Below, one piece after another: positions 1-49,777 of a stretch of DNA of 64,000 nucleotides. The stretch comes from Bacillota bacterium. GTDB lineage: Bacteria; Bacillota; Sulfobacillia; Sulfobacillales; Sulfobacillaceae. Below the pieces are notes generated by a model. It was not told where the DNA came from. It saw only the letters and a program-made list of their open reading frames with translations, and did no database searches. Location: the NCBI GenBank assembly GCA_021797515.1, contig JAJZZP010000187.1, positions 1 to 64,000 on the forward strand. Direction: 5' to 3'. Both the position numbers and the translations under genes were made by a program. Numbering within the stretch: position 1 is the first letter of the stretch; the number at the start of each line of letters is the position of its first letter.

Positions 1-25
1 GGCCTCCGACCGATATGACAAGATG

Positions 26-52
26 ACGGAGATGGCCGCAGGCCATCTCCGT
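26..52. terminator. Perfect 12-bp hairpin, possible terminator
   Basis: ACGGAGATGGCC (26-37) pairs perfectly with GGCCATCTCCGT (41-52) around a GCA loop. No U-tract follows on the plus strand, so a simple intrinsic terminator is not certain. It may end a gene lying to the left of the window. Confidence 0.4.
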
Positions 53-409
53 GACCCAACATGCCTCGAACCAAAATTCCGTCAAATGGCTGAATCGCCT
101 TCTCTAGGGGGTACCTGAATAGTTACCAAGTTTCAGACCAAGCGGATACCGGATCGATGAAATGCCGAAATCACGGGGGCAACCCTTGGTGCTGGTTGTG
201 AAGCGAATGAACTAGGAGCTTGTTCAAAAACTGATGGGCCATGGAATAGTTATCCACAATCTAGTCTGTTGGACGATCAGGCGCTCGCATCGTGCCGCCT
301 TCTGTGTGCTAACGAGTGGGCGGCCGTCTGTCCTCACGTCCTACGCAGTCTGAGGATCGACTGCTACAACCCCTAAATTCCCCATTGCTTTCCAGCAACG
401 GACCCGATT

Positions 410-435
410 ATTGGCTAAATTCGTAATTGGCTAAA
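410..435 (+). repeat. Tandem 10-bp direct repeat ATTGGCTAAA
   Basis: ATTGGCTAAA occurs at 410-419 and again at 426-435, a 16-bp period. It lies about 225 bases before the first gene of the T4SS-like operon. Spaced short direct repeats at such a place are often regulator sites; that role is inference. Confidence 0.5.
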
Positions 436-658
436 AGTACCATAGGCGTCGTAATTTTTAAAAAAGGCCTGTAAAAATGTCGATATGTGGCAAATACGAC
501 TGGAAAGCATTGAATTCCTTGACTCTTCCAAATTTATCTATTCAGAGTTGTCGAATGCTACTGGAAAATTTGGATAGTGTTTCATCAAAATTTCAATTGT
601 ATTATACATATGCGGCAGTTGCCAACAGGCGACTGGCGCCGGATTGGAGGGAGAGCCG

Positions 659-892
659 ATGCCTTCGGCCCAATTGCTTGTGATGATTTCCCGATTGACG
701 GGTATCTTGGTGGACTTGGCAGGTGGTGTGTTTACGCTGGTAATGGTCTATGGTGGGATTCGATTGATGGTAGCGCATAGTCCCAGAGCGGTGCAAAGCT
801 CCAAGGAGCTCATGGGGCGCGCAGCGATTGGCCTGGCTTTAATCTTGCTGGTTGACTTGATTCGTCAATTGTTGCAATATGTCGTCTCTTAA
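659..892 (+). CDS. VirB2/TrbC-like small membrane pilin protein
   Basis: A 77-residue protein with two hydrophobic segments (about residues 5-32 and 48-72) separated by a short basic loop, the layout of VirB2/TrbC-type pilin or pore subunits of type IV secretion systems. The start is taken at ATG 659 because GGAGGGAG lies just upstream; the TTG at 644 would place that site inside the gene. The end overlaps the next gene by 14 bases, as in a translationally coupled operon. Family assignment rests on size, topology and neighbours (VirB6-like, PrgI, VirB4); there is no catalytic motif. No long cleavable signal sequence of the Gram-negative VirB2 kind is seen. Confidence 0.6.
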   Translation: MPSAQLLVMISRLTGILVDLAGGVFTLVMVYGGIRLMVAHSPRAVQSSKELMGRAAIGLALILLVDLIRQLLQYVVS

Positions 893-1664
893 TCCTTTAA
901 CGTGGTCTCTGGAACAGTTGTCACGATGGGTTGATGAAGCACTGGTACAAGTTGCGGGTAGCTTGTTTCGCCAGGTCGTATTTGCTCCCATTCGTTGGAG
1001 CGCCATTGCAAGTGATCTTTATCGCACCAATTTGGACTTGGCTTTAACTGCGCTGTGTCTGGGACTGGTATGGAATCTAATCCAACATATGTGGCCAATA
1101 TGGGGAAACCGGATGGCTGGGACTTCGGTTCTCTCTTTGGAAAGAACCGTCACTGCAGCTCTGATGGCAGTTGCGGCGCTCCCCGTGATACGTGGGTTGC
1201 TGGAGGTTAATGATGATCTAGTCAGAAGTTTTACCACTCATTTGCCGACCGCTGCGGTGACAAGTTCTTCTCCACTGGAACTGTCTCTCAATCCGCTTTT
1301 GACGTTGGTGTTAGGAGCCATCGTGCTGGGTCTTTTGGTCTATCTGGGAGTGTTTTATGCGTTGCGCACGGTGGAAGTGTACATCCTTACGGGGTTAATT
1401 CCATGGTTTATGGTGCTGTGGGCAAATGATAGAGATGATGGGTGGCTTGGAAACCTATCGCGAGAGCTATTGGCGGCGATCTTCGTGCAATGTCTTCATG
1501 CGATGGTATTTTGGCTTTTTGTTCAGATGGCGGTGCATACATCGTCACTGGCTGATGAATTTTTTCAAGCTGGGGTGTTGTGGTACATGACTAAGATACC
1601 AGACCAATTGCGCCGACTATTTGGCACCGCAGGCAGTCGCGGGCGGCTACTCCCATGGATGTAA
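879..1664 (+). CDS. VirB6/TrbL-like polytopic membrane protein
   Basis: A 261-residue protein with about five or six membrane segments (near residues 52-70, 88-108, 138-160, 168-182 and 195-215). It resembles the VirB6/TrbL channel proteins of conjugation machines of Gram-positive bacteria. The C-terminal tail is basic and presumably cytoplasmic. The gene overlaps the pilin-like gene upstream and the PrgI gene downstream (1655). The call depends on topology and position between a VirB2-like and a PrgI/VirB4 gene; sequence motifs in this family are weak. A general membrane scaffold role is the safe minimum. Confidence 0.55.
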   Translation: MSSLNPLTWSLEQLSRWVDEALVQVAGSLFRQVVFAPIRWSAIASDLYRTNLDLALTALCLGLVWNLIQHMWPIWGNRMAGTSVLSLERTVTAALMAVAALPVIRGLLEVNDDLVRSFTTHLPTAAVTSSSPLELSLNPLLTLVLGAIVLGLLVYLGVFYALRTVEVYILTGLIPWFMVLWANDRDDGWLGNLSRELLAAIFVQCLHAMVFWLFVQMAVHTSSLADEFFQAGVLWYMTKIPDQLRRLFGTAGSRGRLLPWM

Positions 1665-1936
1665 GCCGTATTGTTCCCATACCGTTGGCCAAAGACCCCA
1701 CTGTTTTGTGGGGGCTCCACCTCAAAGATTTGATTTGGCTGGCCATAGGTGTGGTAGCCGACTTAGCATTATGGCCTCGCAATCAAGTACAGGCGACCAA
1801 CGTTGTTGCGATGGCACTGATTAGCGGTGTGAGTTTGGCTTTGGCTTGGGGCAAATATGAAGAAGTACCGTTGACCGAATGGTTGTATTTGATGCTCCGG
1901 TATCTAGTGAGGCCCAGAACCTACATCTCTCACTAG
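1655..1936 (+). CDS. PrgI-family (VirB3-like) protein
   Basis: A 93-residue protein with two hydrophobic segments (about 28-45 and 49-65). Its C-terminal pattern, LTEWLYLMLRYLVRPRTYI, is the hallmark of the PrgI family, small VirB3-like partners encoded directly before VirB4 ATPases in Gram-positive conjugation loci. The N-terminal part (IPLAKDPTVLWGLHLKDLIWL) also fits. It overlaps the end of the VirB6-like gene and is followed after 33 bases by the VirB4 N-terminal protein. It is expected to anchor the ATPase at the membrane. Confidence 0.8.
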   Translation: MDVSRIVPIPLAKDPTVLWGLHLKDLIWLAIGVVADLALWPRNQVQATNVVAMALISGVSLALAWGKYEEVPLTEWLYLMLRYLVRPRTYISH

Positions 1937-1969
1937 GCCGTTTAAAATAAATTGATTGAGGTGGATTAG

Positions 1970-2560
1970 ATGGTAGTGTCCTTAAACCGACTATTGCCAA
2001 TTCGTGCGATTGGCCCTGGAATTTGTCTCATTGGGCGGGACCGATTTTCATTAATCATGGAGGCAACGCCAGTAAATTTCTCATTGCGGTCTTTGGGGGA
2101 TCAGGATCGTTTGGTTCACGGTTATACGGCATTTCTCAACGGACTGCATTTTCCGGTAGAACTTTTGGTGAGATCCGACGTATTACGTTTGGACGATTAT
2201 TTGGGGGATTTGAAATCCCGTGAGGAGGAGATTGAACCAGCGTTGCGGCCCTCTTTGAGCGATTATATCGATTTCATACAAGAGGCCGTATCGGTACATC
2301 ACTTGCTGCGACGACGGTTTTTTGTGATTTTGCCGTGGCAAGGATCCGATAGCAGAAGTCGTCCGCTGCGTCGCGGGGAGGTGTTGTGGCAAGAGGCGGA
2401 ACAGGAACTTTTCCGACGCCGGGATATTATTACTCAAGGTATGCGCCCATTAGGCATTCGGCTTCGCATGTTTTCCAGTGAGGAAACATTTAAATTTTTC
2501 TATGCCAGTTTAGGAGGTGGACAGCCGTTGCCGCCGGGGGTCAATTGGGCATGGGACTAA
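1970..2560 (+). CDS. VirB4 N-terminal-domain protein (TraC-like, split)
   Basis: A 196-residue soluble protein that matches the N-terminal non-ATPase domain of Gram-positive VirB4/TraE proteins: an opening LLPI motif, a SLIMEATPVNFSLRS block (about residues 27-41), then YTAFLNGLHFPVELLVRS. In most systems this domain is fused to the ATPase; here it is a separate gene that overlaps the ATPase gene by 10 bases. It has no P-loop. It probably pairs with the downstream ATPase to rebuild a full VirB4. Start ATG 1970 follows a GAGGTGG site. Confidence 0.75.
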   Translation: MVVSLNRLLPIRAIGPGICLIGRDRFSLIMEATPVNFSLRSLGDQDRLVHGYTAFLNGLHFPVELLVRSDVLRLDDYLGDLKSREEEIEPALRPSLSDYIDFIQEAVSVHHLLRRRFFVILPWQGSDSRSRPLRRGEVLWQEAEQELFRRRDIITQGMRPLGIRLRMFSSEETFKFFYASLGGGQPLPPGVNWAWD

Positions 2561-4257
2561 TAGACCGTTTTTGGTCGCGAAAGGCATTGTCTACGATCTC
2601 GGCCGTACTTCCTGACGCTATTCGATTTGGTTCCGATAAATGGCAGATGCATGGACACTGGTACCGCAGTTTTGTAGTGGTAGCCTATCCGAGAGAAGTG
2701 CAAGCGGGATGGTTTGAACCACTTCTCCGCTTTCCACGTCCTCTGGTCCTGACGATATTTTCCGGACCCGTTCCGATTGATTCACAGCTGGGTTCCATGA
2801 ACCGCTCATTGTTATGGAATTTGGGAGAGGAGGAGGCTAACCGGCGTTCAGGTCGGTTAGCTGATCCGGTTCGCCATACAGCGATAGAAGATGCCGAACG
2901 AATCCGGGGGAAAGTGGCTCGGGGCGAAACCCGGTTGATTGAAACCCACTTGACCGCCACATTGTGGGCCGAATCTTTGGAAGCGTTGGACGATGCGTCC
3001 AACTTGCTGATGGGATTGGCATCGGGAATGCTTGTCGTGATGCGTTTGTTACGGTATCAGCAAGACCTGGGACTGCAACGAATGCTTCCCGTTTTTGGAC
3101 CGCCGTCGCATCCCCGAGAAATGGATGCCCATGCGTGGGCTACACTGTTTCCCTATGCTTCGCAAGAACTCATCCATGAACATGGACAAGTATGGGGAGC
3201 CAATGCCCAAACTCACTCGTTGGTGATTGTCGACCGGTTTCAACTGCCGTCTCCACACTCGGTAACTGTAGCCTGGTCGGGCGCAGGCAAAAGCTTCGCC
3301 GCGAAATTGGAAATTTTGCGGACTCGTTACCGGGGAATTCCCGTAAAGGTATTGGATCCCGAGGGAGAATACCAGGTTTTGGAACACATCGGAGCGCACA
3401 TTTGGAAGATTGGGGATCCGGGCAATCCGGAGTTTCCTTGGGATCCCTTCCTAATCGAGCTGAATGACACCCCGGAGGAGACGGAACGTCAAGTCGATTT
3501 TTTACTGCGGTTTGTGGAACGACTGGATCCTAACATCAAACAATTGACCTCGACTTTGGAACGGGCACTTTGGCGGATTATTAGACGACACCAGTCATCA
3601 ACTGCGCTTGACACGGGAACCACTTTGGTATTTCGGCAGCAAGCGGAGATCGTGTGCGATGACAAAATATTGTTGCGAGAACTCGAGACAATAGATTCGG
3701 CGATGAGCGAACGTATAGAGGCCGTGGTACATCGTTGGCGAGTATTGGCCCCGTCGGGGGCAAAGTCCGGATTTGCTTGTGAGGTGTTTGACTTGAGTCG
3801 GCTTACCGAAAAAATGAAAGCCGCGGCATATTTGGCACTGACAGAATATATCGCACGCACGGTGGCCGAGGTTCCCCGCCAGTTAGTCGTTTTTGATGAA
3901 GCCTGGCATTTGCTGAATGATCAGAACACCGCATTGTATCTGGAATCACTTTATCGACGAGCGAGAAAGTGGGGCACAGCTTTAGCTCTTCTTACCCAAG
4001 ACATCGGTGATTTTACTCGTAACAAAGCGGCTGAAGTGTGCCTAAGGAATTCTCCAATTGTTTTGCTATTGCGGCAGCACCCTGAGAGTTTGGCGGAGGT
4101 GACCCAACTGATGCGGTTAGAAGTCGGGGAAGTGGAGTTGTTGAATTTTGCTCAAAGAGGACAAGGGATTTTAATTGTCGGTGATGACCACGTGCCACTA
4201 AATGTGTTAGCTGCTCCCCATGAAGTGCGTCTTATCAATATGGCAACTGCGAGGTGA
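2551..4257 (+). CDS. VirB4/TraE-like secretion ATPase
   Basis: A 568-residue ATPase. The P-loop WSGAGKS lies at about residues 242-248, followed by KVLDPEGEY, the strand seen after the P-loop in VirB4/TraE proteins. Walker B is QLVVFDEAW with Asp449-Glu450, and a downstream ALLTQDIGDF segment matches the sensor/arginine-finger region of the family. It would power assembly of the secretion apparatus or substrate transfer at the inner membrane face. The start ATG 2551 overlaps the preceding split N-terminal gene; a TTG at 2545 is an alternative. The N-terminal half of a typical VirB4 is encoded separately just upstream. No relaxase or VirD4 coupling protein is found nearby. Confidence 0.88.
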   Translation: MGLIDRFWSRKALSTISAVLPDAIRFGSDKWQMHGHWYRSFVVVAYPREVQAGWFEPLLRFPRPLVLTIFSGPVPIDSQLGSMNRSLLWNLGEEEANRRSGRLADPVRHTAIEDAERIRGKVARGETRLIETHLTATLWAESLEALDDASNLLMGLASGMLVVMRLLRYQQDLGLQRMLPVFGPPSHPREMDAHAWATLFPYASQELIHEHGQVWGANAQTHSLVIVDRFQLPSPHSVTVAWSGAGKSFAAKLEILRTRYRGIPVKVLDPEGEYQVLEHIGAHIWKIGDPGNPEFPWDPFLIELNDTPEETERQVDFLLRFVERLDPNIKQLTSTLERALWRIIRRHQSSTALDTGTTLVFRQQAEIVCDDKILLRELETIDSAMSERIEAVVHRWRVLAPSGAKSGFACEVFDLSRLTEKMKAAAYLALTEYIARTVAEVPRQLVVFDEAWHLLNDQNTALYLESLYRRARKWGTALALLTQDIGDFTRNKAAEVCLRNSPIVLLLRQHPESLAEVTQLMRLEVGEVELLNFAQRGQGILIVGDDHVPLNVLAAPHEVRLINMATAR

Positions 4258-4261
4258 GATT

Positions 4262-4810
4262 ATGGCGGTTTCTTTCAAGGTCCCACGTTCCGGCGCTATT
4301 GCAATGATTGTTGCGGGGGTGTTATACGCCGCGTTGAGTGTTCCCCATCTATTCGCACACTCTGTCAAATTACCGGTGGCTACTCGCTACGTTTCTGGTG
4401 GGGAGCCCTTGCAACCCAGCGATTTTACGATGGCCACGGTGACGGCAAAGCCTTTGACTATGTCTTCTAACCAAGTGCTGAAAGATACGTTAGTACCAGG
4501 CCAAGTGATTACGGGTGCACTTCTAGGGACGTCGCCGCATGTGTCTGGAGTATTAGTGGCAGTGACGCCGTCCACCGCAGCAGACATTGAAGTAGCTTCA
4601 CCCGGCAGTGTGGTTTCTATTATCGTAATAACCAGCACTGGCCAGATGTGGCGCTCATCGGCAGTGCCAGTAGTGAGCACCCCGATCGGCAGCAATATCT
4701 TAGGCACTCAAACCAATGCAGTATTATTGCGGTTGTCTATGTATCAAGCCGAGAAATTTTTAAGGATGTCAACGCATGCCCAGGTTTTTTTGGTAGGGGT
4801 GGCGCGATGA
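4262..4810 (+). CDS. CpaB-like SAF-domain protein
   Basis: A 182-residue protein with one N-terminal membrane anchor (about residues 10-32) followed by an exported SAF-type domain: the segment VATRYVSGGEPLQPSDFTMA is the characteristic SAF opening also seen in CpaB/RcpC of Flp (Tad) pilus systems and FlgA. A second beta-rich half follows (VASPGSVVSIIVI). Start ATG 4262 sits 8 bases after GAGGTGAG, 4 bases after the VirB4 stop. Its location in an operon of type IV secretion parts is unusual, since CpaB normally accompanies the Tad secretion ATPase. It ends overlapping the next start. Confidence 0.65.
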   Translation: MAVSFKVPRSGAIAMIVAGVLYAALSVPHLFAHSVKLPVATRYVSGGEPLQPSDFTMATVTAKPLTMSSNQVLKDTLVPGQVITGALLGTSPHVSGVLVAVTPSTAADIEVASPGSVVSIIVITSTGQMWRSSAVPVVSTPIGSNILGTQTNAVLLRLSMYQAEKFLRMSTHAQVFLVGVAR

Positions 4811-5739
4811 TGGTGGTAGCCACTGGGCATAGCCAAGTTCAGCAGTTTGTTAAAACAACCCGACCCAACGTGCGCACGGTCGAGACTTGGGCCGAGGTTT
4901 TACAATTGTTGCCGCGCACTCGTGCGCTGTTTTTAGGTGAACGGTTATCGGGACGTCCGAATTGGGAACAAGTGTTGCCGATCATTACAACCACTGCAAA
5001 CCATGTCCGTTGGATGATCTGGTTGTCCCAAGACGACGACCGTAAAGTGTTTGTAGGAACTGGCGTAGAACTGCTGACCGGCGATTTGACTTCAGGTGAT
5101 TTGTTGAAATGGCTAGGGATTTTTTCCCCGTCAGAGTCGGTTTTAAGCTTGCCGAAACGGTGGGTGTTGTGGCGCCCCGATATGTCTTTAGGTCTAGGGA
5201 TAATCCCCAAACTTACTCAACTTGCACAAAGGCAATATGGTTCTGGGTGTTGGGTGGATTTGGATTGGAGTGTGGCGGGATTAACCGCCGAATTGTGCAG
5301 TGAGGTGTGGAATCAGGGGGATTTTTCTTATGAGAAACTCAAGGTGAAAGCGATGCATTGGGGTTGGCTGGCTCCAGCCCCACCCCCTTGGTCAGTAATA
5401 TTTCAAGTACCCACTGCAGAGGACCTGGATCGTCTGTTAAAACAGGGGTTTGGTTGGTGGGGTTTGGACATTGGTGCCAATTTTCGGGTGCCATTGGCGA
5501 TGAGTGCCATCGAATTGGCATCTCATGTGATTGTCATTGCACAAGGCTCACCAAAAATTTTGCATGAAGGACTGAAGGCGATTCGGATGATATGCCCTGG
5601 GGTTGAAATTATCGGGATCGGCACTGACCCTGCTATCGAAGCCGCAGTCATTCGCGCCAGCGGCATATGGTTCCAGTGGCAGTCCCTTAGTCCCTCAGCC
5701 AAGAAGCCATTTTTTCGCAAAAAACTATGGCGAGATTAG
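4807..5739 (+). CDS. Unknown protein, possible degenerate CpaE/TadZ-like
   Basis: A 310-residue soluble protein not firmly recognised. The start ATG 4807 overlaps the stop of the CpaB-like gene (ATGATGA). An internal segment WVDLDWSVAGLTAELC and a later GLDIGANFRVPLAMSAI are reminiscent of the VDLD and late strands of CpaE/TadZ ParA-like ATPases, which partner CpaB in Tad pili. However, no Walker A lysine motif is visible, so it would be a non-ATP-binding relative at best. It ends by overlapping the stop of the convergent paaI gene by 4 bases. Function unknown; the link to the secretion operon is from gene order. Confidence 0.5.
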   Translation: MMVVATGHSQVQQFVKTTRPNVRTVETWAEVLQLLPRTRALFLGERLSGRPNWEQVLPIITTTANHVRWMIWLSQDDDRKVFVGTGVELLTGDLTSGDLLKWLGIFSPSESVLSLPKRWVLWRPDMSLGLGIIPKLTQLAQRQYGSGCWVDLDWSVAGLTAELCSEVWNQGDFSYEKLKVKAMHWGWLAPAPPPWSVIFQVPTAEDLDRLLKQGFGWWGLDIGANFRVPLAMSAIELASHVIVIAQGSPKILHEGLKAIRMICPGVEIIGIGTDPAIEAAVIRASGIWFQWQSLSPSAKKPFFRKKLWRD

Positions 5740-6140
5740 TGGTGAGGTCCCGCTTTAGTCTCCCTCTCTTGTGGAATACGGAACACCGTGCCACGGAATA
5801 AAGCAACTAATTGGTCATGGCTTCTAACTTCGACCGTGTAGACTGCCACACGCCGTCTTAGAGCAGCCTCCTGGCAGTGGGCATAAAGCGTTTCACCATT
5901 GCGAGCAGCGCGGATAAAAGTCATGGAAGTATCCAAGGCCACTGCGGGAATGCCATGGATGTTGCTGGCCCGCGCAAACACTGCGTCAGCCAAAGTAAAG
6001 ATGACGCCCCCGTGGGCGGTCCCATGTTGGTTCAAATGCTTGTCAGATATGGGCAAGTGGGCTGTCACGTGGCCGGGTTCGGCCTGGTCAATGACGATCC
6101 CTAAATCTTCGCTAAAGATGTCTCGACTTTCTTCATTCAT
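5736..6140 (-). CDS. paaI: PaaI-type hotdog thioesterase
   Basis: A 134-residue hotdog-fold acyl-CoA thioesterase. The block LNQHGTAHGGVIFTLADA is the PaaI signature, with HGG and the downstream Asp for catalysis. PaaI releases CoA from stalled (hydroxy)phenylacetyl-CoA intermediates, so its place next to the paa genes makes sense. Start ATG 6140 lies about 9 bases after GAGGAGGG; the ATG at 6152 would sit inside that site and is rejected. It is divergent from paaA and shares the intergenic control region. Confidence 0.85.
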   Translation of the reverse strand: MNEESRDIFSEDLGIVIDQAEPGHVTAHLPISDKHLNQHGTAHGGVIFTLADAVFARASNIHGIPAVALDTSMTFIRAARNGETLYAHCQEAALRRRVAVYTVEVRSHDQLVALFRGTVFRIPQERETKAGPHH

Positions 6141-6273
6141 GTTGGCTAACATCCCTCCTCAACTGCGGTTTTACTCTGCCATCTCCTTACTGCGGACTTT
6201 GGGCAGCATGTCTCATATTATAGGAATCATTGCCATTTATTTGCCATATTTTTTATCGGATTTACGCAGGGAT

Positions 6274-6301
6274 TTGCTCGACGTTGAGGTATCCGTATGA
6301 T
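6274..6301 (+). promoter_or_regulatory. Candidate sigma-A promoter of paa operon
   Basis: TTGCTC (6274-6279), 16 bases, TATGAT (6296-6301), about 65 bases before the paaA start. Reasonable match to a vegetative promoter, judged by eye only. Confidence 0.35.
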
Positions 6302-6368
6302 ATTTTTTAGGCAAGCGATTGTTTTAAGAAATTTCGTTTTGTGCAACCGTGCGGAGGAGGGACATTCT

Positions 6369-7325
6369 GTGGAAGAGACCGAGCGAACCCGAATTTTTAT
6401 GGAACGGATCAATGCGGGCGAAAAAATTGAGGCCAATGACTGGATGCCCGCGGAATATCGTAATTTGTTGATTAAGCAAATTCACATGCATGGCATCAGT
6501 GAAATTATGGGTGCTTATCCAGAAAAAGAATGGGTGCCTAAGGCGCCGTCGATCCGTCGTAAACTCGCTCTTAATGCCAAGGTGCAAGATGAAATCGGTC
6601 ATGGCCAAATGCTTTTGAGGCTGGCCGAGGATTTAAGCCGTCCCTATGGCCGGGGACGTGAGGAATTGATGGACGATGTATTAGACGGACGAGTGAAGTT
6701 TCACAATGTGTTTCATATGGAAGCGCCAACCTGGGCGGATGCCGGTGTTATCGGATTCCTCGTGGATGGCGGTGCGATTATTACTCAAGCCATGCTCCTT
6801 GATAGTTCGTATGCACCGTATGCGCGGATGCTAAAACGGATTGTAGCAGAAGAAAGTTTTCACATGCAACATGGGGAAGCGGTGGTTTTAGCCTTGGCCG
6901 AAGGTAGCCAAGCGCAACGGGACATGTTGCAAGGAGCGATCAACCGCTGGTGGGAACCCATGATGTTTTTCTTTGGCCCTGTCCAAATGGGCAAAGGCGC
7001 TCAGCGTATGATGGAGTACAAGATTCGCACCAAAACCAACGAAGAGTTACGGCAAAAATTTATTAATCGCTATGTCCCCAGGATTACCTCGTTAGGCATG
7101 ACAATACCCGATTCCGAACTGAGACAGGATCCTGACACCAAAGAATGGCATTATTCGCAACCCGACTGGGAACGGTATAACGCGATGGTGCGCCTTAACT
7201 CGGGACCGATGTCCCAAGCTCGCATTGCCATGCGCCGTCAAGCGCACGAAGAACAGCGATGGGTACGTGAAGCAATGAATAAAGCCTCAGAGCGTCAAGT
7301 TTCTGAACATCAACCAGCTATTTGA
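6369..7325 (+). CDS. paaA: Phenylacetyl-CoA epoxidase catalytic subunit PaaA
   Basis: A 318-residue di-iron oxygenase subunit that inserts one oxygen into the ring of phenylacetyl-CoA. The ferritin-like ligand motifs are visible: DEIGHGQ (Glu75, His78) and EESFH (Glu161/162, His165). GTG 6369 is chosen as the start because GGAGGAGGG precedes it by 7 bases and the length then equals the family norm; an open frame reaches back to 6297 without support. It heads the order paaA-paaB-paaC-paaD-paaK. The reductase subunit gene paaE is not present in this window, so electrons must come from a protein encoded elsewhere. Confidence 0.95.
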   Translation: MEETERTRIFMERINAGEKIEANDWMPAEYRNLLIKQIHMHGISEIMGAYPEKEWVPKAPSIRRKLALNAKVQDEIGHGQMLLRLAEDLSRPYGRGREELMDDVLDGRVKFHNVFHMEAPTWADAGVIGFLVDGGAIITQAMLLDSSYAPYARMLKRIVAEESFHMQHGEAVVLALAEGSQAQRDMLQGAINRWWEPMMFFFGPVQMGKGAQRMMEYKIRTKTNEELRQKFINRYVPRITSLGMTIPDSELRQDPDTKEWHYSQPDWERYNAMVRLNSGPMSQARIAMRRQAHEEQRWVREAMNKASERQVSEHQPAI

Positions 7326-7370
7326 CATTTATTTGGTTGACCTTTACTTGAAAAGGAGGGGGACGATCGC

Positions 7371-7712
7371 ATGCAGGACACGGTCAGCAGCGAATATCCG
7401 GTGTTCGAGGTATTTGTACAAAAGGAGCCATTGGGGTTCCATACCAATGTTGGGAGCTTGCGAGCGGCAAACCCAGAGTTGGCGTTACAGATGGCACGGG
7501 AAACGTTTTTCCGTCGGGAAAATGCGTATGATATCTGGGTTGTGCCTCAAGACTGCATATTTGGCACTGCCCACGATGAAGCTCATTTACCGGTGTCTGG
7601 GTTAGATAAGGGGTATCGACTGCCGGGCGGGTACGACAACGCGTCTCATTGGAAAAAATTTCGGGCCAAGGCTATGACCATCGAAGAAGTAGCCGAGGAT
7701 ATGCGATCCTGA
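7371..7712 (+). CDS. paaB: Phenylacetyl-CoA epoxidase subunit PaaB
   Basis: A 113-residue structural subunit of the epoxidase that bridges the PaaA-PaaC heterodimers. Family features include the opening YPVFEVFVQKEPLGFHTNVG and the block FFRRENAYDIWVVP. Start ATG 7371 has AAAAGGAGGGGG upstream. Somewhat longer than the roughly 95-residue enterobacterial protein, with an added C-terminal tail of about 25 residues (YDNASHWKKFRAK). It lies 45 bases after paaA. Confidence 0.93.
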   Translation: MQDTVSSEYPVFEVFVQKEPLGFHTNVGSLRAANPELALQMARETFFRRENAYDIWVVPQDCIFGTAHDEAHLPVSGLDKGYRLPGGYDNASHWKKFRAKAMTIEEVAEDMRS

Positions 7713-7750
7713 AAATCGAATTTATGGCAAATCGGAGGAGGAACAATACC

Positions 7751-8524
7751 GTGGCAAATCTCGGGGAGTCCGAAACCCGTGCGTTAATCCAGTTGATTAA
7801 GCCCATCGCCGATGATGAGTGGATTGTGGGACATCGGGGCTCGGAGTGGTTGGCTCTGACACCGGATTTGGAAGAAGACTTGGCCTTTAGCTCGATTAGC
7901 CAAGATGAATTGGGACACGCGCAATTTTACTACGAACTGCTGCATTCTCTAGGACTGCCTTCAGCAGACGAGTTGGTCTATTTGCGGCCAGCCTCAGGTT
8001 GGACCAATGCTCAAGTGCTAGAGACGCCCAATCAGGACTGGGCGCATACCGTGGCTCTTCGGTATCTCTATGAGATACTTGACGATATCCGCCATGAGGC
8101 ACTCTTGGGATCTTGGTATCAACCTCTGACGGATGGAGTGCGAAAGATTAGGATGGAAGAAAAATACCATCTGCAACATTTCGCGACCGGGTTCGAGTTG
8201 CTGGCCACCGGAACTGAGTTATCACGGCAGCGTTTGATCGAGGGGATAGCTGACATTTGGCCCCGACTAGGCGACCTTTTTGCCTGGGGTGGTTCGGAGG
8301 AATTTCTCGAAAAATTGGGACTCCCCAATTTGGCACAAGCACAGCTGCGGCACAGCTGGACCACTCGGATGGAAAAAACTTTTCACGACTTAGAGTTGCC
8401 GTGGCCAGGGCCGATGCCGGGAGTGAACGTTAACGGGCGCAATGGCGAACACTCCCAAAATTTGTCAAAGTTGCTTGACGTGATGACTGAAGTGCGCCAA
8501 ATCGATGTGAACTCGCCTTGGTAA
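7751..8524 (+). CDS. paaC: Phenylacetyl-CoA epoxidase subunit PaaC
   Basis: A 257-residue ferritin-fold partner of PaaA. It keeps the family blocks DELGHAQ and EEKYHLQH while serving a structural, non-catalytic role in characterised epoxidases. GTG 7751 follows GGAGGAGG; an ATG at 7724 in the same frame would overlap that site. Located 38 bases after paaB in the same operon. Confidence 0.93.
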   Translation: MANLGESETRALIQLIKPIADDEWIVGHRGSEWLALTPDLEEDLAFSSISQDELGHAQFYYELLHSLGLPSADELVYLRPASGWTNAQVLETPNQDWAHTVALRYLYEILDDIRHEALLGSWYQPLTDGVRKIRMEEKYHLQHFATGFELLATGTELSRQRLIEGIADIWPRLGDLFAWGGSEEFLEKLGLPNLAQAQLRHSWTTRMEKTFHDLELPWPGPMPGVNVNGRNGEHSQNLSKLLDVMTEVRQIDVNSPW

Positions 8525-8574
8525 ATGACAGCGATGCAAGAACATGGATTTCATAGAGGGGCAGGGAGGATATC

Positions 8575-9021
8575 ATGACGGTCACTCGAGAGCATGTAAT
8601 GTCAGCATTAAGCCAAGTAATGGATCCGGAAATTCCGAGCCTCAGCATTGTCGATCTAGGCATGGTCGGGGATGTGATGATTGACGGAGATTCGGTCAGA
8701 GTGGATTTGATCCCTACGTTTTTGGGTTGTCCGGCACTGGACTTAATCCAACGAAATGTGGAACGGGCTCTTTCTGAAACTTCCGTGACCGTGCGTTGGG
8801 TTCACGAGCGCCCTTGGAGTTCCTCCATGATCTCCCGCCACGGACGTCAAGCATTGACCGAATGGGGCGTGGCCCCACCCTCGGATACTGAAGAAGTGGT
8901 GTGCCCATTTTGTGGATCCTGCAACACGAGTCATCAGAGCCCGTTTGGGCACAGTTTGTGCAAAGCTTTATATTATTGTCAGGACTGCTCACAGCCTTTC
9001 GAGAAAATCAAAACCATTTAA
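8575..9021 (+). CDS. paaD: PaaD, Fe-S/metal maturation protein
   Basis: A 148-residue protein with an N-terminal MIP18 (DUF59) domain (MDPEIPSLSIVDLGMV, about residues 15-30) and a C-terminal zinc ribbon (CPFCG and CQDC cysteine pairs). PaaD is required for assembling active phenylacetyl-CoA epoxidase. Start ATG 8575 is preceded by GGGAGGATATC. It completes paaABCD, separated from paaC by 50 bases. Confidence 0.93.
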   Translation: MTVTREHVMSALSQVMDPEIPSLSIVDLGMVGDVMIDGDSVRVDLIPTFLGCPALDLIQRNVERALSETSVTVRWVHERPWSSSMISRHGRQALTEWGVAPPSDTEEVVCPFCGSCNTSHQSPFGHSLCKALYYCQDCSQPFEKIKTI

Positions 9022-32715: not shown

Positions 32716-34107
32716 ATGAGCCAACTTGGTCTAGCGCGATTACAGTTTGGAATCACGACAATTTACCACTTCTTCTTTGCTCCTGTCACCATAGGCATGG
32801 CGGTGCTTTTGGCCATCCTGGAATCGATGTATGTTGCGACGGGAAACGAAGAGTACAAAGCCCTGACAAAATTCTGGGGCAAACTGTTTTTGATCAACTT
32901 CACCGTTGGGGTTGTGACGGGAATTTTGCAGGAGTTTCAATTTGGCCTGGATTGGGCCAACTACTCGCGCTTTGTCGGGGATATTTTTGGCGCCCCGCTC
33001 GCGATTGAAGCGCTGGCCGCATTTTTCTTGGAGTCGACGTTTATCGGCATTTGGCAGTTCGGTTGGGAGCAAGTGTCAAAGAAAGTTCATTTGATTGCCA
33101 TTTGGATGGTGGCACTCGGCACCACCTTATCGGGTTTCTGGATCCTTACGGCGAACTCCTTCATGCAGGAACCGGTGGGATATATGTTGGTCCACGGCAA
33201 AGCGGAGATGAACAGTTTTGGCGATTTACTGACAAATCCCCAACTTTGGGTCGAATTTCCCCATACCATTACCGCTGCCTATCTCACCGCGTCCGTGTTC
33301 ATGCTGGCGATTTCCGCCTATCAAATTCTTCACAAGCGTAATCCTGAGTTGTTTAAGAAGACGTTTAAATTGGCAGCCGTGGCGGTACTCATCACGGGTG
33401 TTGCAGTAGCTGCTATTGGCGACCAACAAGCGACCCATTTAGTTACCGCACAGCCGATGAAAATGGCGGCGGCAGAGGCGATTTGGCATAATACTTCCGA
33501 CCATGCGCCGTGGACGGTGATTGGCGTTGTCGATAGCAAGACACATCAAATAAAGGATGCCGTTCAGGTCCCCGATATGCTGTCGATATTGGCGTATAAA
33601 CGACTGTCAGGTTCACTACAAGGAATCAATACTCTCCAGGCTCAAGACGTGAGCAAATATGGCGCAGGAAACTACGTGCCCCCGGTGGCACCGACATTTT
33701 ATGCGTTTCGCGTGATGATTTTAATGGGGGTGTTGATGGTTTTGGCTGGACTTTGGGCCACGATACGGATTAAAGGAGAAAAATTTCTCAAAAATCCGCG
33801 CATGCTCAAACTGCTGATTTGGACATTGCCGATGCCATACATCGCCAACGCCGCCGGGTGGATCATGACCGAGGTGGGCCGCCAACCTTGGGTGGTATAT
33901 GGATTGCTATCCACCGCAAAAGGTGTGTCGCCGGCACAAACGGTACCGGCACTGGACATCTGGACCTCGTTGGTATTATTTTCTGCCATTTACACGGCTC
34001 TGGCGGTTGCGGCAGTGTTTCTCTTCAAGAAGTACACCGATTTGGGAGCAACACCAGCCAGGGCTCCTGTCGAAGGCGAAGGGGATGGGTATCTCCATGT
34101 GATTTAA
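32716..34107 (+). CDS. cydA: Cytochrome bd ubiquinol/menaquinol oxidase subunit I
   Basis: A 463-residue nine-helix oxidase subunit that carries haems b558, b595 and d and oxidises quinol while reducing O2. Ligand positions are visible: His18 (ARLQFGITTIYHF), His183 (WVEFPHT) and Met384 in the MTEVGRQPW block. The Q-loop is short, as in most Gram-positive enzymes. ATG 32716 follows AGAAGGAGGCTGAATT. cydB follows after 82 bases. A second, distinct cydAB pair lies at 47295-49777. Confidence 0.95.
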   Translation: MSQLGLARLQFGITTIYHFFFAPVTIGMAVLLAILESMYVATGNEEYKALTKFWGKLFLINFTVGVVTGILQEFQFGLDWANYSRFVGDIFGAPLAIEALAAFFLESTFIGIWQFGWEQVSKKVHLIAIWMVALGTTLSGFWILTANSFMQEPVGYMLVHGKAEMNSFGDLLTNPQLWVEFPHTITAAYLTASVFMLAISAYQILHKRNPELFKKTFKLAAVAVLITGVAVAAIGDQQATHLVTAQPMKMAAAEAIWHNTSDHAPWTVIGVVDSKTHQIKDAVQVPDMLSILAYKRLSGSLQGINTLQAQDVSKYGAGNYVPPVAPTFYAFRVMILMGVLMVLAGLWATIRIKGEKFLKNPRMLKLLIWTLPMPYIANAAGWIMTEVGRQPWVVYGLLSTAKGVSPAQTVPALDIWTSLVLFSAIYTALAVAAVFLFKKYTDLGATPARAPVEGEGDGYLHVI

Positions 34108-34189
34108 GGTTGGAACCTCTCAGTATCCCGATGAGAGAATTTCAGAGGTCGGCGTGGACAAGTATTTTTAGAGGGGAGGAGGGGCCCTC

Positions 34190-35197
34190 ATGAACCTGAA
34201 TATTCTGTGGTTTATCCTAATTGGGGTGCTCTTTGTCGGTTATTTTTTTCTCGAGGGTTTCGACTACGGGGTCGGCATGATTTATCAGTTTCTTGGTCAT
34301 TCGGACACCGAACGCAGAGTAGCCTTAAATGCCATTGGACCTACCTGGGGGGCCAATGAAGTGTGGCTGATTACCGCCGGGGGGGCGATTTTTGCAGCAT
34401 TCCCGCAATGGTACGCCTCTCTTTTCAGCGGTTTCTATCTAGCCTTAGTGTTGATGCTGCTGGGTCTTATTGCCCGCGGAGTGGCGCTTGAATACCGCAG
34501 TCGCCATGACAAGCCGGGATGGCGCCGTGTGTGGGATTGGGCACTAACCATTGGGAGCTTTATCCCTGCGTTGTTATGGGGAGTCGCGGTGGCCAACTTG
34601 GTGAGGGGTGTGCCCATCAACGGACAGATGAACTTTACCGGCAATCTCTTGACGTTGTTAAATCCCTATGCATTGTGGTCGGGGTTGACCATGGTCATCA
34701 TCTTTATTGCCCATGGTGCATATTTCCTGAACATGAAGACTGGGGGGATGATGAGTTACCGCGCCAAACAACTGGTGAAGCCGATGGGATACATCGGCAC
34801 GTTTATGGTCTTGGTGCTCTTGGTCTGGAGTTCTACACTAAATGACCTGCGGCTGGGAGCAGTGCCGGCTGCGGTGGGATTGATCGCTCTGATTTTGATT
34901 GCGTCCGCGGTCCTTGCTGAAGGCCGCAATCGGGCCCGTACAGCGTTTTTTATGCATGGCATTGGCATCGCCTCTTTGACCGTATCGTTTTTTGTTGCTC
35001 TGTTTCCGCGGGTTATGATCTCCAGCCTGAACCCTCACTGGAGTCTCACCATCTACAACGCCGCATCGAATGAATACACACTGCATGTGATGACGATTGT
35101 GGCTCTGACTATGGTCCCCATTGTGCTGGCGTATCAAATCTGGACCTACTGGATTTTTCGTCGCCGGGTGGGAACCAAAACTCCCATGGAGTATTAA
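34190..35197 (+). CDS. cydB: Cytochrome bd oxidase subunit II
   Basis: A 335-residue polytopic partner of CydA. The opening FLEGFDYGVGM, the block IGPTWGANEVWLITAGGAIFAAFP and the late ISSLNPHWSLTIYNAAS are typical of CydB. ATG 34190 follows GGGGAGGAGG. Followed by a clear hairpin terminator at 35217. Confidence 0.94.
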   Translation: MNLNILWFILIGVLFVGYFFLEGFDYGVGMIYQFLGHSDTERRVALNAIGPTWGANEVWLITAGGAIFAAFPQWYASLFSGFYLALVLMLLGLIARGVALEYRSRHDKPGWRRVWDWALTIGSFIPALLWGVAVANLVRGVPINGQMNFTGNLLTLLNPYALWSGLTMVIIFIAHGAYFLNMKTGGMMSYRAKQLVKPMGYIGTFMVLVLLVWSSTLNDLRLGAVPAAVGLIALILIASAVLAEGRNRARTAFFMHGIGIASLTVSFFVALFPRVMISSLNPHWSLTIYNAASNEYTLHVMTIVALTMVPIVLAYQIWTYWIFRRRVGTKTPMEY

Positions 35198-47164: not shown

Positions 47165-47294
47165 AAAACACTTGAATTTTATCGATTTTGTAAGCTTTTA
47201 GGAGATATCCCAGAATTGGAGGTCGATAACGATTCACTGAAAAATTTGCATGGGGGCCAAAAAATCGGAAACCCTACCACATGGGAGGTGCGCT

Positions 47295-48689
47295 ATGACG
47301 GTTGTGGGGTTAGCTCGGCTACAGTTTGGAGTCACGACTATCTATCACTTTCTAATAGTTCCTTTAACAATCGGCACCGCGTTGCAATTGGCGATTTTAG
47401 AGACTATCTATTGGAAAAATCCTACCCCTAAGATGCGGGCGTTGTTGGATTTCTTTGGACGTCTGTTCTTGCTTAATTTTGCTTTGGGCGTGGTGACTGG
47501 GATTCTGCAAGAATTTCAGTTTGGCATGAATTGGTCCAGTTATTCCCGATTTGTCGGGGATGTATTTGGCGCACCGCTGGCCGTTGAGGCCTTGGCCGCA
47601 TTCTTTTTGGAGTCTACATTCATCGCCATTTGGATCTTTGGCTGGGATTGGGTCTCGCCACGCCTGCATCTATGGTCAATATGGTTGGTGGCGTTTGGCA
47701 CCAGTCTCTCCGCGTTTTGGATTTTGACCGCAAATTCTTTTATGCAGGAACCGGTGGGATTTGTTCTGCGCCATGGCCGGGCGGAAATGGTGAATTTTTT
47801 TGCCTTGTTGGGCAACCCTCAGTTATGGGTGGAATTCCCGCATACCGAAATTGCGGCGTTGGCCACCGGGGGTTTCTTTGTGGCGGGGATTAGCGCCGTA
47901 TTTCTTCGCAAGGGGAAACACGTAGAGGAGTTCCATCTCTCGTTCCGGGTGGCTATTTTGACGGCTGCGGTGGCCAGCATTTTGGTGATCATAATTGGTC
48001 ATGAACAGGCCCAACATCTTATTGTGTCCCAGCCTATGAAGATGGCGGCATCAGAAGCGCTGTACCACACTAGTTCACTGCATGCCCCATGGACGTTAAT
48101 TGCTTGGATTGGTCCGGTTCGGCAGGTCAACCGCTTCGTTATGGCCATTCCCTATACGTTGTCGATTTTAGCCTATAACAGTTTATCAGGGCGAGTGGTG
48201 GGGATTGATGCGCTTCAACATCTTTATGTGCATCGGTATGGACCGGGATGGTATGTACCTCCGATAGTCGTCACCTTTTGGGCATTTCGCCTCATGATTT
48301 TGACCGGATTTCTGATGGCGGCCATCGCATTGCGGGCTATATGGCTGGAGCACAAGGGGATTTTGCTCAAGGCCAGCAATTTTTTAAGGGTCGTGTCATG
48401 GTCGATTGGGTTGCCGCTGTTGGGTAATATCATGGGCTGGGTAATGACCGAAGTAGGCCGCCAGCCTTGGATAGTGTTTAGCCTCATGAAGACGGCCGAT
48501 GGTGTGTCGCCCACGGTGCCGATGGCGGACGTTTGGATTACCCTAGTAGGATTTGGCGGATTGTATGGCATTTTGGGATATATTGATACCCGCCTACTGA
48601 TCAAGTATGTGCGTCTAGGGCCCGAAGCCAACGAGCCGGAAAGTCCCCATCCGCCATTGTTCCAAGTTGTTAACCCCACAGATTCGTGA
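47295..48689 (+). CDS. cydA: Cytochrome bd oxidase subunit I, second copy
   Basis: A 464-residue CydA paralogue. The opening GLARLQFGVTTIYHF carries the first haem His, WVEFPHTEI the second, and MTEVGRQPW the third-haem Met and quinol-side block. It is clearly diverged from the copy at 32716 but keeps every ligand, so it should be active. ATG 47295 follows GGGAGGTG; the frame extends upstream without support. Unlike the first copy it has no cydDC nearby and instead adjoins an SQR-like gene, suggesting use under different donors or O2 levels. Confidence 0.94.
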   Translation: MTVVGLARLQFGVTTIYHFLIVPLTIGTALQLAILETIYWKNPTPKMRALLDFFGRLFLLNFALGVVTGILQEFQFGMNWSSYSRFVGDVFGAPLAVEALAAFFLESTFIAIWIFGWDWVSPRLHLWSIWLVAFGTSLSAFWILTANSFMQEPVGFVLRHGRAEMVNFFALLGNPQLWVEFPHTEIAALATGGFFVAGISAVFLRKGKHVEEFHLSFRVAILTAAVASILVIIIGHEQAQHLIVSQPMKMAASEALYHTSSLHAPWTLIAWIGPVRQVNRFVMAIPYTLSILAYNSLSGRVVGIDALQHLYVHRYGPGWYVPPIVVTFWAFRLMILTGFLMAAIALRAIWLEHKGILLKASNFLRVVSWSIGLPLLGNIMGWVMTEVGRQPWIVFSLMKTADGVSPTVPMADVWITLVGFGGLYGILGYIDTRLLIKYVRLGPEANEPESPHPPLFQVVNPTDS

Positions 48690-48763
48690 AGGACATTTCA
48701 AATGGGGCAGGCATAGGTGTAGAGACGGGTTATCGTATGAGTAAGTGACTAGGAGGATGCGCC

Positions 48764-49777
48764 GTGCACTTGCCAAGTGTCTGGTTTGGCTTGATTGCTG
48801 TGTTGTTTGTGGGCTATCTGTTTTTGGAAGGATTTGACTACGGGGTTGGTATATTGGTGCCCTTTCTAGGGCGAACCGATCAAGAACGCCGCGCCTTAGT
48901 TGGGACCATCGGGCCGGTTTGGGATGCCAATGAGGTGTGGCTAATCACGGCCGGAGGCGCCATTTTTGCCGCTTTTCCCGACTGGTACGCCACGCTGTTC
49001 AGCGGATTCTATCTTGTTTTAGCGCTTTTATTGGCAGCTTTGATCATTCGTGCTGTAGCACTGGAGTATAGATCTAAGGATGATCGGCCTCAGTGGCGCG
49101 CCAGATGGGATGAGCTCTTGGTGGTCGGCAGCGCCATTCCCGCCTTTGTCTGGGGAGCAGCTATGGGAAACATGTTGCATGGGGTGCCGATCAATGCACA
49201 GATGAACTATGTCGGGGGATTTTTTACCTTGCTTAATCCCTATGCCATAATTGGCGGGATTGCCTCATTGCTGTTGTTTACTCTTCACGGGGCACTGTTC
49301 TTGTCGATGAAGGCGCCGCTAGAATTAGCAAAACGCGCGGATCAGGCAGCATTTAGGATTGGATGGCTGACTACCCTATTCTATTTTAGTTTTGTGGTTC
49401 TTAGTTACTACTTCGCCAATTTACGGGTGAGATTGGGCGTCGACCCCGGACCGGTTCCCGTATTAGCGGGATTTTGTATGATTGCCATTCGGTTTGTGTT
49501 GCAGCGGGGACTGCGGGGATGGGCTTTTGCGTTGACTGGTTTGACAATTGTGCTATCCACTATCAGCGTGTTTTTGACGCTCTACCCGCGTCTGATGATT
49601 TCCACATTAAATCCTCGGTGGAGTCTCACCATTTACAATGCGTCCTCTAATGGATATAGCCTTATGGTTATGACGATAGTCGCGATTACCGTGCTGCCCA
49701 TTGTTCTGGTATATCAAGTATGGACCTACTGGCTTTTTCGCAAGTGGGTGAGTATGGACGATGCCTTTCATTATTAA
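48764..49777 (+). CDS. cydB: Cytochrome bd oxidase subunit II, second copy
   Basis: A 337-residue CydB paralogue, with FLEGFDYGVGI, DANEVWLITAGGAIFAAFP and the late ISTLNPRWSLTIYNASS blocks. GTG 48764 follows AGGAGG. It is 74 bases after cydA2. A short GC-rich hairpin (GCGCCCG/CGGGCGC, 49797-49817) follows and may terminate the operon, though without a T-run. Confidence 0.93.
   Translation: MHLPSVWFGLIAVLFVGYLFLEGFDYGVGILVPFLGRTDQERRALVGTIGPVWDANEVWLITAGGAIFAAFPDWYATLFSGFYLVLALLLAALIIRAVALEYRSKDDRPQWRARWDELLVVGSAIPAFVWGAAMGNMLHGVPINAQMNYVGGFFTLLNPYAIIGGIASLLLFTLHGALFLSMKAPLELAKRADQAAFRIGWLTTLFYFSFVVLSYYFANLRVRLGVDPGPVPVLAGFCMIAIRFVLQRGLRGWAFALTGLTIVLSTISVFLTLYPRLMISTLNPRWSLTIYNASSNGYSLMVMTIVAITVLPIVLVYQVWTYWLFRKWVSMDDAFHY

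Follow-up and report, generated by a model that had tools for sequence, protein, structure and literature searches.

Bacteria of the Sulfobacillus group are heat- and acid-loving organisms. The DNA analysed here, a 64,000-nucleotide stretch of a Sulfobacillaceae genome (assembly GCA_021797515.1, contig JAJZZP010000187.1; hereafter the window), carries at positions 659–5739 an operon of seven plus-strand genes in which components of a type IV secretion system (T4SS) are followed by proteins of the Tad pilus type. All open reading frames (ORFs) of this set, which an earlier note had described as seven packed genes, were confirmed, with neighbours either overlapping by 4 to 16 bases or separated by gaps of 4 to 33 bases, and since the same order recurs in relatives the arrangement is not a product of chance. 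The window starts at the contig end, and its left context was read from relatives with an intact left flank.

The first gene (659..892) encodes a VirB2-like pilin of 77 amino acids (Pfam T4SS_pilin, 1.6e-6, over the cut-off), which has a length of exactly 77 residues and 55–97% identity among relatives and a ratio of nonsynonymous to synonymous substitution rates (dN/dS) of 0.02–0.04. It is followed by a VirB6/TrbL-like polytopic membrane channel protein of 261 residues (879..1664; Pfam TrbL_4, 9e-7, over the cut-off), kept in all complete loci, and by a PrgI/VirB3-like membrane protein of 93 residues (1655..1936), whose match to Pfam PrgI (4.5e-5) lies slightly below the cut-off and whose gene is conserved in position. 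VirB4 is encoded by two genes. The first specifies the N-terminal domain (196 residues, 1970..2560; dN/dS 0.013–0.017) and was assigned through its relatives, 9 of 21 of which match the CD1110-family VirB4 model (best 2e-7); neither this half nor the last gene of the operon gave a Pfam match. The second specifies the C-terminal ATPase (570 residues, 2545..4257), which matches Pfam AAA_10/TraG over the cut-off and the NCBIfam CD1110 model at 1.7e-58, below the equivalog cut-off of that model, and has intact Walker A (WSGAGKS) and Walker B (FDEAW) motifs with invariant key residues; the family profile matched the solved VirB4 structure 4ag5 at 1.8e-34. In loci L131 and L132 a single frame covers both the PrgI-like gene and the N-terminal part of VirB4, and in the divergent locus L131 this frame runs to 928 residues and also takes in the VirB4 ATPase. 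The split VirB4 was rejected as a unique trait, as separate frames for the N- and C-terminal regions also occur in other loci of the phylum.

The remaining two genes encode a protein of 182 residues composed of an N-terminal helix, a SAF domain and an RcpC C-terminal domain (RcpC/CpaB-like, 4262..4810) and a protein of 310 residues with a receiver-like and a MinD/ParA-like domain that lacks the Walker A lysine (CpaE/TadZ-like, 4807..5739). For the latter a 363-residue ORF opens earlier, and the ATG at 4807, which overlaps the preceding stop codon as ATGA, was chosen. As database models left the last gene unnamed and gave the sixth nothing but weak matches (Pfam SAF, 0.067), family profiles were set against the canonical Tad proteins that the same genome encodes on contig C179, where Flp pilin, RcpC, CpaE, TadB, TadC and TadE were recognised by Pfam and CpaF by a separate search. 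The sixth-protein profile matched the Tad CpaB of the same genome along the entire protein (E=2e-5; control 0.64), and the last-protein profile matched the Tad CpaE over most of its length (E=9e-5; control 0.07). Structural models pointed the same way: the sixth protein resembles Tad RcpC (9gzr_A, Z 8.9, residues 94–182) with a preceding SAF domain similar to FlgA (Z 7.5), and the model of the last protein (mean predicted local distance difference test score, pLDDT, 89) resembles SpoOF (Z 12.8, residues 1–108) and ParA/MinD (Z 13.5, residues 116–298). No TadZ-labelled protein was among the matches listed for this model, which does not exclude a likeness to TadZ. A DotH/IcmK match of the SAF protein (0.012) lay below the cut-off and was rejected. 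A degenerate P-loop (GGLGTTT / GGVGTTT) is legible in family f2 and gone in Sulfobacillus, so that the last protein is CpaE/TadZ-like and probably a pseudo-ATPase. By profile comparison and predicted fold, the Tad assignments hold for the CpaB-like and CpaE-like genes, and the earlier calls of a VirB2-like pilin, a VirB6-like protein, PrgI and a split VirB4 were likewise borne out.

VirB4 was searched across the class; the order comprises families f1–f3, of which 42 genomes were sampled. VirB4 was found in 40 of these (exceptions G100 and G124), the last gene occurred at the same places, and there is usually one close copy of the operon per genome. The seven-gene order, whose synteny across Sulfobacillus genomes had been proposed as a check, is kept in all fetched loci and in every complete locus of another set of named records, which repeats some of the same genomes and from which contig-cut loci were left out for the order count; operon-bearing records include Sulfobacillus thermotolerans, S. 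benefaciens, S. harzensis, S. acidophilus and related metagenome-assembled genomes (MAGs). The earlier note had reasoned that a relaxase or VirD4 gene just left of the window, or failure of the CpaB-like and last genes to be conserved with VirB4, would mark an ordinary element fragment. In most loci with enough sequence, including the intact relatives, the left flank holds gatA, gatB, an LD-carboxypeptidase gene, rumA and an amino-acid permease gene rather than a relaxase or VirD4 gene, and both Tad-type genes accompany VirB4 in every complete locus. In one genome, G091, the complete operon is present twice: about 12 kb from the intact copy lies one with frameshifts (L056:6244-11342; C1 about 1596200-1601300), a decaying duplicate.

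Pairwise distances of VirB4 and CpaE correlate with those of GatB (r=0.90 and r=0.89; 0 of 2000 permutations each), and dN/dS values against the two nearest relatives range from 0.013 to 0.23 for all seven genes, which are under purifying selection. Sporadic presence, a variable site and an integrase or tRNA boundary, as expected of a mobile element, were not found. The window contains no tRNA gene, plasmid records yielded only distant VirB4s (identity at most about 30%), the conjugative S. thermotolerans plasmid pY0017 carries a different system, and viral contigs held no convincing relative. In a sample of 398 genomes of the phylum, no match outside the order rose above 1e-75, the level of ordinary VirB4s. 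MAG incompleteness bears on absences. The anatomy and vertical inheritance of the operon are well supported, and the suggestion of a chromosomal VirB4 motor combined with Tad-type factors, outside any mobile element, stands on the fixed site, the agreement with GatB and purifying selection.

The Tad part, which had been taken to consist of the CpaB-like and CpaE-like proteins, proved to be larger. In most genera and in family f2, genes for a CpaF ATPase (PF00437, 2e-42), a TadB-like protein (1.7e-10 to TadB) and a TadC-like protein come straight after the last operon gene. This trio has been relocated in at least some genomes of the window's genus, g6, g9 and g10: it lies on contig C69 in the window's genome, where CpaF is 54% identical to the operon type vs 39% to the canonical Tad CpaF, and about 29 kb downstream of the operon in S. 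thermotolerans. The downstream position in most genera and the moves elsewhere are therefore most simply explained by a longer ancestral operon that ran VirB2, VirB6, PrgI, VirB4N, VirB4C, CpaB, CpaE, CpaF, TadB-like, TadC-like, with VirB2 as the sole pilin recognised in it. No prepilin peptidase, Flp or TadE ORF was recognised by eye past the TadC-like gene in Sulfobacillus.

VirD4 was also searched across the class, and the gene pair to which it belongs was then tracked with family profiles. Nearly every genome of the order encodes a VirD4-like protein of about 490–515 residues; that of the window's genome (489 residues; PF02534, 1.2e-12, over the cut-off) lies on contig C45, unlinked to the operon. 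In the genomes inspected, its locus adjoins minC and a cell-shape/division-type cluster, and its neighbour is a Replic_Relax-family protein, in which a conserved D…LExDxGKE motif may mark a nuclease site; searches of solved structures with the Replic_Relax-like protein and the VirD4 profile gave no usable match. Among genomes that carry the operon and exceed about 87% completeness, each has the pair or shows it truncated where a contig ends; in the rest of the class these profiles find the two genes together almost nowhere. Genome G100 (genus g7, 96% complete) is without the operon, the VirD4 pair and the operon-type CpaF all together; the three modules are present or lost together, and we infer that the VirD4-like ATPase works with the operon. 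G100 was in the same search also without a recognisable canonical Tad CpaF, a natural loss of all these modules. The earlier note had seen no VirD4 or relaxase gene in the window, and no relatives of the system's VirD4, TadB/TadC-like or Replic_Relax proteins were found elsewhere in it (MOB models were not run), but in the genome the pair occupies a fixed, unlinked site. As this pair shares the distribution of the operon, DNA transfer can therefore not be opposed to a secretion machine in the way the earlier note had done. Soon after minC and the VirD4 pair on C45, an open frame of 2717 codons was observed (G000:C45; L072:8615-16768); a long frame likewise starts at the corresponding spot in G121 (L085).

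Of the components that define a monoderm (MPF_FATA-like) T4SS, VirB4, VirB6 with VirB3/PrgI and an unlinked VirD4 were found. Of those that define a Tad system, RcpC/CpaB with CpaE/TadZ and CpaF with a TadB/TadC platform (TadC-like weak) were found, and a Flp/TadE pilin and prepilin peptidase were not recognised in the Sulfobacillus locus. Upstream of the operon, a plus-strand region (560..658) is conserved within the genus and partly in the next genus in a six-genome alignment. It includes an inverted repeat, TTGCCTA-n-GGCAA (window 610–640), near or just upstream of the ribosome-binding site and kept in two genera, which may be an operator or an RNA hairpin. Neither the VirD4 nor the CpaF module showed this repeat in its upstream sequence, a promoter scan gave nothing better than shuffled sequence, and an Rfam scan of window positions 1–9000 gave no match.

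The same design recurs at great divergence and the hybrid is therefore old: families f24 and f25, which belong to the same class, encode, next to metG, VirB6, VirB4, SAF, CpaE-like, CpaF and TadB/TadC-like proteins, with not every component recognised in every genome and a TadE-like ORF in f25 only. In both families VirD4 is located elsewhere, and in f24 it is followed by a protein that clearly matches Replic_Relax (3e-10). PrgI, VirB4, VirD4 and a replication-relaxation protein are encoded side by side on the nearest plasmid relative (Embleya NZ_CP108778). None of the 42 genomes of the order has the DNA-uptake channel ComEC (PF03772), which is present in 80 of the 154 genomes of the class overall, namely in 3 of 56 with a strong VirD4-like match (E about 1e-44 or better) vs 77 of the 98 others. 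A literature search, outside which most subscription journals lay, retrieved nothing published on either a VirB–Tad hybrid or the ComEC of Sulfobacillus.

Comparison with known systems revealed several partial likenesses. The Ced and Ted systems of Thermoproteota derive from T4SSs, are chromosomally encoded without a relaxase and rely on a minimal VirB2/VirB6/VirB4 set, with some parts at distal loci in certain cases; Ted loci include a MinD/ParA ATPase, in Sulfolobales CedB and CedD jointly make the VirB4-type N-terminal domain, and Ced, which exchanges DNA, acts together with Ups, a type IV pilus apart from it that serves aggregation (PMC9905601, PMC11868833). The Sulfobacillus operon shares the chromosomal, vertically inherited minimal VirB2/VirB4/VirB6 set, and its VirB4 is divided between two genes, much as the VirB4-type N-terminal domain of the Sulfolobales Ced system is divided between two proteins. 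Unlike in Ced and Ted, the pilus motor is of the Tad type and belongs to the same ancestral operon, and PrgI/VirB3 and a VirD4-like protein are present. With a CedB model match of 4e-5 that reached 22 of the 700 bits required, and no match to a CedA model, the machine is not a Ced member by sequence; Ced plus Ups is its closest working analogy. The PAPI-1 island of Pseudomonas aeruginosa is likewise chimeric, joining VirB4 and VirD4 to type IV pilus genes, but it is mobile and uses another type IV pilus (PMC12857230), whereas Tad factors, VirB2/VirB3/VirB6 and no sign of mobility are found here. Chromosomal T4SSs of Patescibacteria, which usually have no relaxase, share a monoderm-type VirB4 and a VirB2-like pilin (PF18895), but a word search found no mention of Tad genes in that report (PMC12102498). 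Gram-positive and actinobacterial conjugation genes (CD1110/CD1115 type, as in Embleya NZ_CP108778) share PrgI, VirB4, VirD4 and the replication-relaxation protein; there, in contrast, these plasmid or element genes form one cluster, which includes an NlpC/P60 hydrolase gene and in which no Tad genes are annotated. Finally, RcpC/CpaB, CpaE/TadZ, CpaF, TadB-like and TadC-like proteins are shared with the Tad/Flp pilus of the same genome (C179), from which the operon differs in the VirB2 pilin replacing Flp, the pseudo-ATPase CpaE and the lack of a recognised prepilin peptidase or TadE gene in Sulfobacillus. In Cenarchaeum/Thaumarchaeota MAGs (L128:1-10095, L129, L130), a row of genes was noticed that comprises two ATPase genes, one of the CpaF type (PF00437, 2.6e-25) and one VirB4-like, together with genes for a weakly PrgI-like protein and a multi-membrane protein and an ORF weakly resembling flagellin/pilin, possibly an archaeal T4SS–pilus hybrid.

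With somewhat better than even confidence, we read the operon as the membrane core of a domesticated, chromosomally inherited T4SS/Tad chimera that would move DNA between cells in the manner of Ced/Ted plus Ups. Its parts include three motors with intact motifs (VirB4, CpaF and VirD4) and one degenerate one (CpaE). PrgI, VirB6 and both VirB4 halves would form a membrane complex that builds a thin pilus of VirB2 and gives DNA a path; CpaF and the TadB/TadC-like proteins could power filament extension or retraction, bringing cells together, with CpaE holding the CpaF/Tad platform in place and the RcpC ring guiding the filament; and VirD4 with the Replic_Relax protein would choose and process the DNA passing through the VirB complex. 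The likely outcome, likened to archaeal Ced/Ted plus Ups, would be exchange of chromosomal DNA between relatives by import or export. The operon may serve such exchange because the order is without the usual DNA-uptake channel, ComEC. That the VirB channel, VirB2 pilus and Tad motor act as one, in a new class of chromosomally encoded and vertically inherited DNA-exchange machine which took over DNA acquisition after ComEC was lost, as a bacterial counterpart of Ced/Ups in a similarly hot and acidic habitat, is a tentative extension that we consider possible and short of probable.

Several observations weigh against a DNA-moving machine of this composition. The link among the three loci (operon, C69 and C45) and the movement of DNA are predictions from sequence. 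The TadC-like assignment is weak (1.4e-3 to TadB; T2SSF, 0.02), and the search for the operon-type CpaF yielded no more than a fragment in G104 and nothing in G121 (94% complete). The Sulfobacillus protein also matches the Replic_Relax family weakly (4e-4 to 1e-6), and relaxase activity cannot be read from it. Neither a VirB8-like protein nor a cell-wall hydrolase was found among the seven genes by Pfam and NCBIfam, the rest of the genome not being searched, and neither LexA-type boxes nor a common upstream motif was found for the operon and the VirD4 locus. As to ComEC, three genomes of the class hold both ComEC and VirD4, and the co-occurrence is phylogenetically clumped, the counts not being independent events, so that one ancestral gain and one loss of ComEC could explain most of it.

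The operon could alternatively build a surface filament for attachment to minerals or cells, with VirB4, VirB6 and PrgI assembling the VirB2 pilus with Tad factors, neither DNA nor effectors passing through, and the VirD4 pair unrelated. The operon proper indeed contains only a pilin, a channel, a motor and pilus factors, RcpC and TadZ are pilus proteins, and Tad pili mediate aggregation and attachment (PMC12307814). However, the same genome already has a canonical Tad locus with a Flp pilin, the VirD4 and Replic_Relax pair tracks the presence and loss of the operon, and genes of these two types adjoin VirB4 on the nearest plasmid relative, which leaves this explanation rather unlikely in our view. 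Still less probable is protein secretion derived from conjugation with VirD4 as the receptor for protein substrates, as proposed for Patescibacteria: non-conjugal roles have been put forward for chromosomal T4SSs without a standard relaxase (PMC12102498), yet the neighbour of VirD4 is a Replic_Relax-family candidate for DNA processing rather than an effector, and neither effector nor toxin genes were noticed in the vicinity of the operon or of VirD4 among the loci that were read.

An integrative conjugative element remnant fixed by chance would account for the homology of the parts to Gram-positive conjugation genes, in a group that does have conjugative plasmids. Given the same site and gene order across the order, the usually single copy, purifying selection and vertical signal, together with the lack of a tRNA gene in the window and of plasmid VirB4s more than about 30% identical, we regard it as very improbable, and it was rejected on the grounds of site, inheritance and selection.

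Elsewhere in the window, two gene sets resembling cytochrome bd oxidase (cydAB) were identified by eye from the translations (32716–35197 and 47250–49777), the first of which is preceded by an ABC exporter pair on the opposite strand.

T4SSs and Tad pili are treated as separate families, and the known chimeras join T4SS motors with another type IV pilus, as in PAPI-1, or with type VII secretion. Members of Sulfobacillus are culturable and used in biomining, and for S. thermotolerans a complete genome and known plasmids are available. A VirB and Tad operon kept as a housekeeping trait across a whole order would show a route by which bacterial conjugation machinery is domesticated, and it turns the way in which lineages without ComEC acquire DNA into a testable question.

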